Shown: piece after piece, positions 43,098-47,846 of the stretch | Layout of the letters: every line of letters begins with the position of its first letter | Position numbering within the stretch: the first letter of the stretch is position 1 | DNA from: Microbacterium salitolerans | Lineage (GTDB): Bacteria; Actinomycetota; Actinomycetes; Actinomycetales; Microbacteriaceae | Direction of reading: 5' to 3' | Length of the DNA stretch: 64,000 nt | Assembly (NCBI RefSeq): GCF_019720895.1 | Contig: NZ_JAHKSH010000001.1 | Span: 372,001 to 436,000 of the forward strand | Notes under the pieces: generated by a model | Seen by the model: only the letters and a program-made list of their open reading frames with translations | What the model was told of the DNA's origin: nothing | Database searches by the model: none | Program-made: the position numbers and the translations under genes

Positions 43098-46000
43098 ATG
43101 GGACGACTCATGCAGGAACGTGATGCCGAAGCGACGGCTCCCACCGTCGCGAATCAGGTATTCGAACTTCTGGAGTATCTCTCCGCCGCCGCGCGCGAGC
43201 TCGGGCCCGCTCCCGTGCGGGATGTCCGGAAGCATGACGTATCGGTTTGGCCGGCGGATCTGCCGGAGCACCCTGCTGTCACGGTCGGGGCCAGTGCGAA
43301 CGGTGCCTGGATGGAGGTCAAGCGCGTCGCCGCCCCGGAGCTGCTCGCGGTGCCGGAGGAGCTTCGCGGGATCCTCCGTGTCGGCGAACACATCACGACT
43401 CCTCAAGTTCGGCCGACCTGGTCGGCGGATGCCATCACCGCGAAGGCCGAGAAGCGGGTGGTGGAGGAAGCAGGCGATCCTGGTCATGAGGACGGAGCGG
43501 CGTCGATGGAGCGCACTGCGCGCGTCCGCCAGGTCCGGTCTGAGATCATCGCGAACGTCGACGATTGGATTGTCGGCGCCTGGGAGCCCTGGGCGGATCG
43601 AGTCCGCCCTGCGTTCGAAGCGAGAGCCCTCTACTCCCAGCTTTACGACCTCCATCTGAAGGAGGACGCGGACTCGGCGACGCATGAGGTCGTGTGGGGG
43701 CACCTGTTGCTTTCGTGGAGAGGCGAGAGCGAAACGGTCCTGACACCGATGCTGACCACTCCGGTCATGATCGAAGTCGACTCTCTCAGTGCCGCAATTC
43801 GGGTCGTCGCGGAGAAGCCGCTCGAACTCGAGCTCGATGTCGTCGAAGGCACCGACCTCCCCGGGGTCGAAGGGCTCGTTCGTCTGCAGGCCGAGGTACG
43901 AGATTCGCCGCCGGATCCATGGGATGTCGAGGCGCGTCAGCAGGCGCGCCAGCAGATCATCGCGCCTCTCGGCGTTGACGCGCACCTCAGCGAATCGCGT
44001 GAGCCCGAGAGGCCGACCTTCTCACCCCGCTTGGATGACGGATGGGTGATCGTGAAGCGTCGCCGGCCGATGCGACAGGAACGCTTCTACGACGAATTGG
44101 CGCACAAGCTCGGAGACGAAGACCTCGTGCCGGAGGCGCTGGCATCGGTCGTCGCCGATCGAGACCAAGTGGATGAAGCCGTGCGCGAGTCTGGTCAGGA
44201 CGTTTCCACCGACGACGGCACAGCCGACCGACTGATGATGCCGCTGCCCACAAACGCCGAGCAGGAGCGCATCGCTCGGCAGCTCGCGACATCGCGTGGC
44301 GTGACGGTGCAGGGCCCACCCGGGACCGGGAAGTCTCACACCATCGTCAACCTCGTCTCGCATCTCGTCGCGCAGGGGAAGCGCGTGCTTGTCACCGCAG
44401 AGAAGGAGCAGGCGCTCTCAGTGCTTCGGGACAAGATTCCTGAGCCGCTCCGTGACCTGTCGATCGCCGTCCTTGGATCGACCCCAGCGGCGATGGAGGA
44501 GCTTCGTTCCTCGGCACAGGCGATGCAGGACTCACTTTCGTCGATCGATGTTTCGCGTGAGACAAACCGAAGCCGCGAACTCGGTACACGGATCGACGAG
44601 CTGCGAGAGCAGATTCGGCTCACCGACGCCAAGCTTGTGGAGGCGCTTCGAAGTGAGCAGCGTGAGTACCCCCTGCCATCCGGGCCGGCCCGGGCCCCAC
44701 AGGTCGCTGAGTGGTTGGCCAAGGACCGTGATCTCGACATCGTCGACGACGCCGTAGCTCCCGAGGTCCGCTTCCCGCTCACCGACGATGAAGTGCACGA
44801 GCTCGTCGGGTTCCTTCGCACGGTATCGTCCGCGGACTCCGAGGCGTCTTTGCAGGATCTGCCGACGGATGAGTGGATTCCCACTCAAACGGATCTCGAG
44901 GAACGCTGGCGTCGTCAGCAGTCGCTTCGTGACGTCGTCACCACACTGGAGGATGACGGGCTCAACGTGGCAGGCGTCGACAGCATCGATGTCGATACGA
45001 TCTCCGCGACCGCTCGGTACGCGCGAGAGTCTGCTGATGCCCTCACTCGCCTGGGTGGGCCTTGGGAGGCCCCATTTGCGCAGGCGATTCGGGAGTCATC
45101 GCCCGCCGTCGCATGGATGATGCCGCACAATTCCACTGTGCAGGAGCAACTGCAGGCGGTACGCGGGCACGCGGACCGGCTGGCGGGGCACGTCGTCGAG
45201 GTTCCTGATGGCGATCCTGCGATTCAGAATGCTCTCCTCCGGGAGTGGCACGGGCGGATCACGGCCGGAAAGAAGATCTCGGCATTTGCTCGCCGCGATC
45301 TCAAGGACCTCAACGCTCAGACGCGGGTCGACAACTATCCTGTCACGACGACTCCGCAACTGGATCTGGTCTGGACAGCCATGGATCAACGCGTCCGGCT
45401 CCGCGGGATCCACACGCTGATGCGGCAGACCTACGAGCCGCTCGGTATTCCCGTTCCGCCGTTCGATCCGTCATTCCAATTCGCGGCCGAACGGACCGCG
45501 GCTCGTGTCGCTCAGCTCCACACGTGGTGGACCGAGACGTATCGCGCGCTGACCGAGCGCCTGCAGCCCCTGGTCGCCGTGGAGGATCCCGCGTCGCAAC
45601 CGCAGCGGCTCACCCAGGCGGCCGAGCTTCTCGACCGTGCGGCCGCGCGCGCAGAGGAGCGCGCTCTGACAGCGACGCTGCAGACGTTGAAGGGCGACCT
45701 CGCCGAACGATCGCAGCGGGCAGGATCCTCGCCAGTGTGGGGAGACCTGGTCGACGCCGTCGACTTCGCACGGCCCGACAAATGGGGTTCCGCGATCGAC
45801 GAAGCAAGGAGACTCCTCGCGGTCCGCGCGAAGGCGACTCGAGCGGGAAGCCTGCTCAGCAGGATCGCGGAGGCCGGCGCACCGAAATGGGCGCGCCAGC
45901 TGCGCGAAACACGGGCTGACGAAGATGTCACGGGCGATCTTGAGCACGTCGAACTCGCCTGGGATCGCGCTCGCGCCCGGACATGGCTGGTGTCACTTCA

Positions 46001-47846
46001 CAAAGAGTCAGATGTCGATGCGCTCATGTCCCGCTCCCACGCTGACGCGCAGGAACTTCGCCGCGCGATCACGGATCTGGCAAGTCGATCCGCGCGCGTG
46101 GAGCTCAAACAGAACATCAAGGACCGCCAACGACGTGCGCTCGATGTCTGGCTGACGGCCGTGCGACGCGTGGGAAAGGGAACGGGCAAGAACGCGCCGA
46201 GATTCCGAGCCGCGGCCCGCGACGCACTGCCAGCGGCGATGGGTGCCGTACCTGTGTGGATCATGCCGATCTATCGCGTCCTTGAGAACTTCGATCCGCG
46301 CCGATCTGAGCTCTTCGACGTCGTGGTGGTCGACGAGTCCTCCCAGTGCGACCTGCTGACGCTCGGAGTGCTTGCGCTCGGGAAGAAGGCGGTGATCGTC
46401 GGTGACGACAAGCAGACCACCCCGAACCTTGTCGGCATCGACACGTCGCGCATCGCGGCGCTGCAGGATCAGCACCTGCGCAGCGTCCAGGAAGCGAAGC
46501 TTCTCACTGTGGACGAGTCTCTCTACTCGATTGCAAGTCGCGCGTTCCCCTCTCTGATCGCGTTGAAAGAGCACTTCCGCTGCGTGCCGGAGATCATCCG
46601 ATTCTCAAATCGCTACTACGACGGAGCGATCAAGCCGCTGCGCGAGCTCAGCGTGTCTCAGATCGGAGACCCCGTTCGCGTTGTGCGGGTTGAGGAAGCT
46701 GTCTCGGAGAGAATCGGCAGCAATCGCGTCAATCGCCGCGAGGCGGAGGCTGTCGCCGATCAGGTGGCAGCGTGCATCGCGGACCGCGCGTACGACGGCC
46801 TCACATTCGGTGTCGTCACGATGATGAGCGGACCCCAGGCCCAGATCCTCCAGGACATGATCCGTGACCGGATCGGAGACGCGGAGTTCGAGCGACGTCG
46901 AATGCGCGTCGGAAATCCGCCGCTCTTCCAGGGGGATGAGCGCAACGTCATCTTCATCTCGATGGTTGCGCACGACAATTCCTCCGCGGCGACGCGACTG
47001 TGGCACGCGCAGTGGGCGAACGTTGCGGCTTCCCGCGCGCAAGACCAGCTCTGGGTTTTCCACAGCATGGATCCCGCAACGCTCAACCATCAAGACGAGC
47101 GCCGCGCGATGATCGAGTACGCCCGCGGCGTCGAACACCGCGACGAGACCGAGGATCTGTTCGATCTGACGGAGTCGAAGTTCGAGCGTGATGTTCTCCA
47201 GCAGATGCTGGACCGTGGATACGAAGTCGAACCGCAGCACCAGGTTGGAAGCTATCGAATCGACTTCGTCGTGCGAGTCGCGCCCGGGGAACGTCTCGCG
47301 GTCGAATGCGATGGTGACTCCTTCCACGGCCCCGACAAGTGGGATGAGGATGTGCGCCGGCAACGAGTGCTCGAACGACTGGGATGGACGTTCTGGCGCG
47401 TTCGTGCGTCGGCCTACTACCTGGATCCGTCGGCGTCGATGCAGGCTTTGTGGGATCGTCTCGGAGAGATGCGAGAGCGAGCCGCGCAGAAGGAGGCGCG
47501 CCGCCGATCAAGCACCCCAATCGAGATCGCGGACGCGAGTCAGGGAGACGAATCGACGGGAGAACGAGTTGACGACGACGCCTTCGAGGCGGGAGCCGAC
47601 GTTGAGGTCGTCCCCGTAGGTCCCGTCGGCGCGGATCATGAACGAGCGCAGAACGGCGGCCGGTTCTCGCGTTCTCGCGTTGAACCCGACGACGGGTCGC
47701 TGAGATCGTCTCGCGACCAGGAGAATCCTGACCCGGCGGACGTTCGTCGATGGGCGCGGGCCAACGGCTACGAGATCGGCGACCGCGGTCGAGTCGCGCA
47801 CGACATCCGCATGGCGTACGTCGAGGCACACCGCTCGAACGGATAG
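43098..47846 (+). CDS. SF1 helicase-nuclease with C-terminal Lsr2 DNA-binding domain
   Basis: The 1582-residue protein has an SF1 (UPF1-like) helicase split by a long coiled insert. Walker A is GPPGTGKSHTIVN (406-413), Walker B VVVDESSQ (about 1076-1083), with later motifs VGDDKQTTPN, FRCVPEIIRFSN and WANVAASRAQDQLW. A MTES_1575-type PD-(D/E)XK nuclease follows (about 1355-1460; RIDFVV, then AVECDGDSFHG). An acidic linker leads to a domain at about 1543-1582 that matches the C-terminal domain of Lsr2 (VRRWARANGYEIGDRGR). The RGR hook inserts into AT-rich minor grooves. This suggests a nuclease targeted to AT-rich foreign DNA. The ATG at 43098 is used; 43110 is possible. Confidence 0.85.
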   Translation: MGRLMQERDAEATAPTVANQVFELLEYLSAAARELGPAPVRDVRKHDVSVWPADLPEHPAVTVGASANGAWMEVKRVAAPELLAVPEELRGILRVGEHITTPQVRPTWSADAITAKAEKRVVEEAGDPGHEDGAASMERTARVRQVRSEIIANVDDWIVGAWEPWADRVRPAFEARALYSQLYDLHLKEDADSATHEVVWGHLLLSWRGESETVLTPMLTTPVMIEVDSLSAAIRVVAEKPLELELDVVEGTDLPGVEGLVRLQAEVRDSPPDPWDVEARQQARQQIIAPLGVDAHLSESREPERPTFSPRLDDGWVIVKRRRPMRQERFYDELAHKLGDEDLVPEALASVVADRDQVDEAVRESGQDVSTDDGTADRLMMPLPTNAEQERIARQLATSRGVTVQGPPGTGKSHTIVNLVSHLVAQGKRVLVTAEKEQALSVLRDKIPEPLRDLSIAVLGSTPAAMEELRSSAQAMQDSLSSIDVSRETNRSRELGTRIDELREQIRLTDAKLVEALRSEQREYPLPSGPARAPQVAEWLAKDRDLDIVDDAVAPEVRFPLTDDEVHELVGFLRTVSSADSEASLQDLPTDEWIPTQTDLEERWRRQQSLRDVVTTLEDDGLNVAGVDSIDVDTISATARYARESADALTRLGGPWEAPFAQAIRESSPAVAWMMPHNSTVQEQLQAVRGHADRLAGHVVEVPDGDPAIQNALLREWHGRITAGKKISAFARRDLKDLNAQTRVDNYPVTTTPQLDLVWTAMDQRVRLRGIHTLMRQTYEPLGIPVPPFDPSFQFAAERTAARVAQLHTWWTETYRALTERLQPLVAVEDPASQPQRLTQAAELLDRAAARAEERALTATLQTLKGDLAERSQRAGSSPVWGDLVDAVDFARPDKWGSAIDEARRLLAVRAKATRAGSLLSRIAEAGAPKWARQLRETRADEDVTGDLEHVELAWDRARARTWLVSLHKESDVDALMSRSHADAQELRRAITDLASRSARVELKQNIKDRQRRALDVWLTAVRRVGKGTGKNAPRFRAAARDALPAAMGAVPVWIMPIYRVLENFDPRRSELFDVVVVDESSQCDLLTLGVLALGKKAVIVGDDKQTTPNLVGIDTSRIAALQDQHLRSVQEAKLLTVDESLYSIASRAFPSLIALKEHFRCVPEIIRFSNRYYDGAIKPLRELSVSQIGDPVRVVRVEEAVSERIGSNRVNRREAEAVADQVAACIADRAYDGLTFGVVTMMSGPQAQILQDMIRDRIGDAEFERRRMRVGNPPLFQGDERNVIFISMVAHDNSSAATRLWHAQWANVAASRAQDQLWVFHSMDPATLNHQDERRAMIEYARGVEHRDETEDLFDLTESKFERDVLQQMLDRGYEVEPQHQVGSYRIDFVVRVAPGERLAVECDGDSFHGPDKWDEDVRRQRVLERLGWTFWRVRASAYYLDPSASMQALWDRLGEMRERAAQKEARRRSSTPIEIADASQGDESTGERVDDDAFEAGADVEVVPVGPVGADHERAQNGGRFSRSRVEPDDGSLRSSRDQENPDPADVRRWARANGYEIGDRGRVAHDIRMAYVEAHRSNG

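Follow-up and report, generated by a model that had tools for sequence, protein, structure and literature searches.

P0001, a protein of 1582 residues combining a helicase, a nuclease and an Lsr2 domain, is probably a defence effector whose C-terminal Lsr2 domain gives it an AT-biased means of loading onto DNA, a reading to which we assign a probability of about 0.55. Its gene lies on the forward strand at positions 43098-47846 of the window (that is, the whole 64,000-nucleotide stretch of Microbacterium salitolerans DNA analysed here) and was delimited by an ORF call, with orthologs (L035-L039) at 54-59% identity. This single ORF encodes, in order, a first helicase half (AAA_11, residues 385-515, window:44250-44642; Pfam E 1.4e-18), a second helicase half (AAA_12, residues 1141-1321, window:46518-47060; Pfam E 1e-13), a Vsr-like PD-(D/E)XK nuclease of the MTES_1575 type (residues 1362-1455, window:47181-47462), a linker (residues 1486-1540, window:47553-47717) and an Lsr2 DNA-binding domain (PF23359, residues 1543-1577, window:47724-47828; Pfam E 9.9e-12), all on the forward strand. 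The fusion of helicase, MTES_1575 nuclease and Lsr2 that the original prediction had read from the sequence is thus borne out, each of the four matches exceeding its own curated Pfam cut-off, and the nuclease profile is matched over its full length (PF18741, E 3.5e-31, 107.6 bits vs a cut-off of 38.2, profile positions 1-96 of 96). The Walker A motif GPPGTGKS occupies residues 406-413, the motif VAASRAQDQL lies at residues 1309-1318 in the AAA_12 half, and the nuclease stretches YRIDFVV and the LAVECDGDSFHG region are conserved between P0001 and its orthologs. Walker A, a DE-containing motif, the SRA motif and the nuclease YRID and ECDGD are kept across the orthologs, compared where ortholog sequence is complete (L039 ends at a contig edge ahead of Walker A); we take these letters to be the SF1 motifs so named and the PD-(D/E)XK catalytic residues. 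Pfam matches of the whole protein include no HEPN, transglutaminase, winged helix-turn-helix (wHTH) or DUF4011 domain, and matches at E up to 1 include no N-terminal Lsr2 oligomerisation domain.

The profile search of the tail could have refuted its assignment to the Lsr2 C-terminal domain; it found Lsr2 similarity, PF23359 scoring 44.4 bits against a gathering cut-off of 26.9. A six-frame genome search recovers the same site (E 1e-12), and phmmer with the last 72 residues against PDB sequences (E up to 1) matches three chains, all of them Lsr2 (6qkp, 2kng and 6qkq; E 2.5e-4 to 2.9e-4). The two predicted signatures are present, VRRWARANGY at residues 1549-1558 and RGR at residues 1563-1565 (window:47784-47792), the latter being a minor-groove hook (role from PMC6212790). 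Among the six clade members, eight columns of the Lsr2 domain are invariant, including R-x-W-A and RGR. The domain is carried by 5/5 near orthologs (43.2-51.6 bits in four of them); outside this group, it scores 34.2 bits in the more divergent L088, discussed below. Conservation of the tail across the near orthologs recovered shows that the match is not due to chance. Mean identity across the clade is 80% in the nuclease and 75-79% in the helicase cores, drops to 17% in the poorly conserved linker and reaches 49% in the Lsr2 domain. This conserved island adjoining a variable linker argues for a function of the tail.

All five orthologs continue past Lsr2 into a further conserved domain of ~90 residues (for example, L035:14867-15166), which is missing from P0001, whose C terminus falls five residues beyond the Lsr2 match. 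Its family relationship is limited to one weak Pfam match in 1/5 members (E 0.26), comparison with the PDB gave no convincing match (best E 0.1), and a search of the window for traces of it came back empty (best match E 0.13, in an unrelated place). Since P0001 nests inside the clade in the tree, the simplest interpretation is that the window lineage lost the extra domain, and P0001 may be a reduced form of the ortholog architecture.

A scan of genome contigs covering 84,980 species, sensitive to close relatives only, returned the five orthologs (L035-L039), from Microbacterium, Gulosibacter, Promicromonospora, Isoptericola and Oerskovia. Relatives were gathered from 299 genomes of the family, 248 of the order and 246 of the class (overlapping sets) and from plasmids. 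An ortholog-level copy was present among the 299 family genomes in the own genome only, the next best match being 37% identical, and relatives were found in 13/248 genomes of the order (E 1e-30) and 30/246 of the class (E 1e-40). Distant relatives occur in 414 plasmid records, and none of the 30 plasmid matches listed extends beyond P0001 residue 1456. Viral contigs gave one pattern match and no confirmed relative in a scan that reaches close relatives only, and phages gave two weak matches in the helicase region.

The fetched loci yielded 77 ORFs at E 1e-40, in which a purpose-built profile scored Lsr2 in 11 rows, corresponding to seven distinct proteins. Trees were built on the second helicase half plus the nuclease, with P0001 added, in two versions: a 64-row tree leaving out five duplicates of P0001, L038 and L088, the frame fragment L110_-1_0, six partial duplicates, L122 and L136, and a 66-row tree that includes L122 and L136. 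All sampled rows are Actinomycetota except three Proteobacteria plasmid rows. Lsr2 is lacking in 57/64 and 59/66 rows, and with 57/64 rows lacking it, the helicase-nuclease core does not need this domain. In both trees, the starred branches force two changes of the Lsr2 label, and a single change was seen in 0% of 200 bootstrap trees in both runs. The second gain is L088, ~32% identical to P0001, whose nearest relatives (L092 and L089) are without Lsr2. Separate acquisition of the domain on two occasions, in the same slot after the nuclease, is supported by these topologies. Tails following the nuclease in Lsr2-less relatives are mostly 11-145 residues long, with a minority of 180-511. A Sphingobium relative has DUF3320 (PF11784) in this slot, the L091 tail matches DUF4357 below the cut-off, and the long tails of L082, L099, L113 and L006 hold no Pfam domain above cut-off (4/5 long tails scanned); in the founding protein, MTES_1575, a pair of wHTH takes this position (PMC3710099). 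Judged from these tails, what occupies the slot varies, and in some cases it is a DNA-binding-type module.

The neighbours of these genes differ from locus to locus. A type ISP/IIG restriction-modification (R-M) enzyme (window:37848-43013, forward strand; Pfam Mrr_cat_2, ResIII, ISP_coupler, N6_Mtase and Type_ISP_C; PADLOC REase_MTase_IIG 2041.8 bits) ends 84 bp upstream of the P0001 gene on the same strand. At L038, an R-M enzyme is again directly upstream (PADLOC type IIG 1399.7 bits and DrmMI 192.1; Pfam Eco57I methylase), and a DrmD-like helicase, GmrSD and a DruE-like helicase surround the gene; the two R-M enzymes have no mutual BLAST match at E 1e-3. In total, 2/5 clade loci with upstream sequence have a methyltransferase-bearing R-M enzyme directly upstream, at ~85-100 bp and on the same strand. 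L037 has an HNH gene upstream and Wadjet II JetB, JetC and JetD beyond it, a more distant Acinetobacter relative is preceded by BREX genes, and 0/10 flanking proteins checked at L035 and L036 match PADLOC. There is no constant partner gene across the Lsr2-clade loci. The earlier claim that the protein could work without a modification enzyme has evidence on both sides: no modification partner is constant, but the R-M enzymes with a methyltransferase upstream at two of the five loci count against it. The two loci without such a gene weigh in the opposite direction to the window and L038, and the balance between the readings is left unchanged.

For P0001 itself, PADLOC returned distant matches only, the best being PDC-S37. 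With these matches distant, and with scores for the systems Hhe and ProA far below their cut-offs, we infer a defence function from relatives and neighbours; a limited literature search found no phenotype or biochemistry for the P0001 family. The lack of a PADLOC match among the ten proteins near L035 and L036 also fits a repair or genome-maintenance helicase-nuclease, which Lsr2 would hold to the chromosome as a tether, like that of the LigA and Ku fusions. Such a role sits poorly with the R-M, GmrSD, Wadjet and BREX neighbours and with the patchy distribution (ortholog-level copies in 1/299 genomes of the family, and relatives in 13/248 of the order and 30/246 of the class), and even with the Lsr2 fusions described below in its favour we regard it as quite unlikely.

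Downstream of P0001, on the same strand, lie genes for a MazG-like pyrophosphohydrolase (window:47894-48247; PF12643 E 1.2e-18) and a Schlafen-group-3 helicase, identified by Pfam, with an N-terminal GIY-YIG-like region (window:48249-49979; GIY-YIG 21.1 bits, cut-off 22.6). The pair adjoins both Lsr2 lineages (the window and L138, the locus of L088), and among 43 family-member genomes (13 from the order search, 29 more from the class search, and G069) the Schlafen-helicase gene occurs in these two only. As specific partners, MazG and the GIY-YIG/Schlafen helicase were rejected. The Schlafen-helicase gene is present in 23/248 genomes of the order, a P0001 relative was found at 0/12 further Schlafen-helicase loci (of 21 further genomes matched; ~6-9 kb on each side), and MazG adjoins the helicase in 8/12 of these. 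Both genes are thus probably not partners of P0001, and window:47894-49979 looks like a free-standing two-gene module and a defence candidate. A neighbour of L088 considered as type-ISP-like (L138:4063-7182) was likewise set aside, as the match spans a helicase stretch only; it is a PLD/ResIII/DUF3427 helicase. We also note a Fic protein resembling SoFic at window:50627-51841 (PADLOC 217.6 bits; NCBIfam 61.1 bits vs a cut-off of 550).

The Lsr2 domain is found on other enzymes. A survey of domain fusions, proposed with the original prediction, was carried out on 35 regions with long ORFs from the class and order: one search gave 89 matches in 60 genomes, from which 15 regions were taken (14 plus one from the own genome), and another contributed 20 regions from among the matches listed. 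Lsr2 was joined to recognisable enzymes in 13/35 (L041, L045, L046, L048, L062, L063, L064, L073, L074, L076, L077, L078 and L079), of which L064, L074, L076, L077 and L078 were assigned by reading and the other eight were confirmed by Pfam. Fourteen were Lsr2 proteins, ordinary or with a broken frame, whose open-frame extension is spurious (L040, L044, L049, L052, L061, L065-L072 and L080), and the remaining eight, placed in neither group, were L042, L043, L047 (under the cut-off), L050, L051, L053, L054 and L075. The fusions include a D12 (Dam-type) adenine methyltransferase with C-terminal Lsr2 (L045:2318-3469, context L139), a candidate AT-biased methyltransferase; NAD-dependent ligase LigA with a C-terminal Lsr2 behind BRCT, seen in two genomes that belong to a single family (L062:1598-4429 and L063:1945-4527); ERCC4 (L048:2845-3939 and L079:2019-2978); RNase_T exonuclease (L046:1737-3386 and L073:1933-4335); and an AAA_27 protein, SbcC-like by reading, with C-terminal Lsr2 (L041:1224-5207, context L140:5435-10710). 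L041 has a neighbour that is metallophosphoesterase-like by its first residues, a putative partner. Lsr2 lies at or near the C terminus in all fusions except L073 (583-616 of 801). Separately, the own genome holds a further ORF of 417-455 residues with an internal Lsr2 domain, distinct from ordinary Lsr2 (L054, G000:C14:513000-521000). A Ku-Lsr2 fusion is known from cluster J mycobacteriophages (PMC8612146). In the open-access literature, with most subscription papers outside its scope, Ku-Lsr2 was the only described Lsr2-enzyme fusion found, and no paper was found naming both Lsr2 and MTES_1575.

Across these proteins, Lsr2 has the look of a DNA tether in general use among actinobacteria. Because LigA and other general DNA enzymes carry it, an Lsr2 tail by itself does not imply targeting of foreign DNA; the ligase, exonuclease, ERCC4 and AAA_27 fusions also speak for the repair role considered above. 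The proposal that Lsr2 lets P0001 find invading DNA is plausible, and the biochemical half of it is supported, in that the isolated single Lsr2 domain binds an AT-rich oligonucleotide with a Kd of 0.21 uM and leaves a GC-rich oligonucleotide unbound (PMC6906086), and high-affinity Lsr2 8-mers are mainly 87.5-100% A/T (PMC6212790). Invader recognition does not follow from AT binding by itself, given the domain's occurrence on LigA and general enzymes.

Counts of Lsr2-type 8-mers bear on how far AT content could separate self from foreign DNA. The host carries 0.445 per kb (285 kb of own-genome DNA) and the window 0.234; by arithmetic, the host density is ~0.26 per kb without the 5.4-kb contig L176 (55% GC), the composition count leaving out five contigs shorter than 1.2 kb (L177-L181). 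Random sequence of 52% GC has ~27.5 per kb. Stretches of four Microbacterium phages, counted as a proxy on the ground that one ortholog comes from this genus, gave 0.44 for Casend (25 of 62 kb), 0.50 for Mercedes (20/40), 0.04 for KaiHaiDragon (25/53) and 0.89 for Anseraureola (9/17), so that the site density of the sampled phages overlaps that of the host and AT content would separate few of the four from it. The phages of two published sets span 63.5-68.9% GC (PMC11659878) and 52.3-68.9% GC (PMC12776033).

These densities weigh on the strong form of the original prediction, in which AT content is itself the self/non-self signal, the protein loading on AT-rich invaders, ignoring the GC-rich chromosome and needing no modification enzyme. 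The oligonucleotide preference, the rarity of A/T-rich 8-mers in the host relative to random 52%-GC sequence and the ten PADLOC-negative flanking proteins at L035 and L036 are all consistent with it. Set against these are the phage densities of 0.04-0.89 per kb and the phage GC of up to 68.9%, the occurrence on LigA and other enzymes of an Lsr2 domain that therefore need not mark foreign DNA, the methyltransferase-bearing R-M enzymes that immediately precede the gene in the window and at L038, and the two short Lsr2-type ORFs of the own genome, which would compete for sites. We consider this form unlikely. Invaders that are truly AT-rich could be told apart by AT content, but the four sampled phages could not, and AT-guided restriction makes physical sense in part.

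The address might also be supplied by the host, whose Lsr2 would leave the chromosome and gather on replicating phage DNA; by analogy, an Lsr2-bearing nuclease would follow it there whatever the GC content of the phage. The fused domain retains RGR, but the evidence for such gathering comes from full-length Lsr2, oligomerisation domain included, and from another genus, and a single domain may not follow. Such guidance appears improbable for P0001.

The reading preferred here, an effector with an AT-biased loading domain, asks less of Lsr2. P0001 would act against mobile elements as a single-polypeptide effector, its SF1 (UPF1-like) motor travelling on DNA and feeding the Vsr-like PD-(D/E)XK nuclease. 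The Lsr2 domain on its long linker would be a tether, its RGR hook entering the minor groove where short A/T tracts occur, raising local concentration and biasing loading to exposed AT-rich DNA. Whether to cut would be decided largely by the helicase and nuclease, for instance when they meet DNA ends or intermediates of replication; discrimination would go beyond AT content alone. A bolder extension, which we hold to be unlikely, is that actinobacteria have turned a silencing code into a destruction code at least twice in evolution, each time by joining the DNA-binding domain of the silencer to this one nuclease family: Lsr2-addressed helicase-nucleases would cut DNA with Lsr2 sites that host Lsr2 leaves free, AT-rich invaders and phage replication zones among them, without a methylation mark.

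In classical restriction systems, self DNA is recognised by its methylation. If a nuclease does read base composition or nucleoid-protein sites, this would be another route to telling self from foreign, and the existence of family members with and without Lsr2 makes base-composition reading directly testable. The reuse of one silencer domain on a ligase, a methyltransferase, an exonuclease, ERCC4, AAA_27 and a helicase-nuclease looks like an actinobacterial habit.

Compared with known systems, P0001 most resembles MTES_1575-type proteins (HEPN, transglutaminase, SF1, Vsr REase and two wHTH; PMC3710099), with which it shares the order of SF1 helicase, MTES_1575 nuclease and C-terminal module; it differs in being without HEPN and transglutaminase and in having an Lsr2 domain where the two wHTH (DUF3320) sit. 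Helicase and nuclease regions are also common to the PADLOC candidate PDC-S37 (200.2 bits, best stretch 802-1476, for a profile without a stated cut-off), to ProA (NF058533; 214.4 bits, below the equivalog threshold of 1500) and to Hhe (NF042953; 150.5 bits, below the equivalog threshold of 2000); P0001 differs from these in giving no DUF4011 match. Unlike the Lsr2 xenogeneic silencer, P0001 has no N-terminal oligomerisation domain and its Lsr2 domain is attached to enzymes. Ku-Lsr2 of cluster J mycobacteriophages (PMC8612146) is alike in placing a C-terminal Lsr2 on a DNA-acting protein, which in that case is a phage end-binding Ku, whereas P0001 is a helicase-nuclease. P0001 is best described as a helicase-nuclease of defence type that has borrowed its AT-hook tether from Lsr2.
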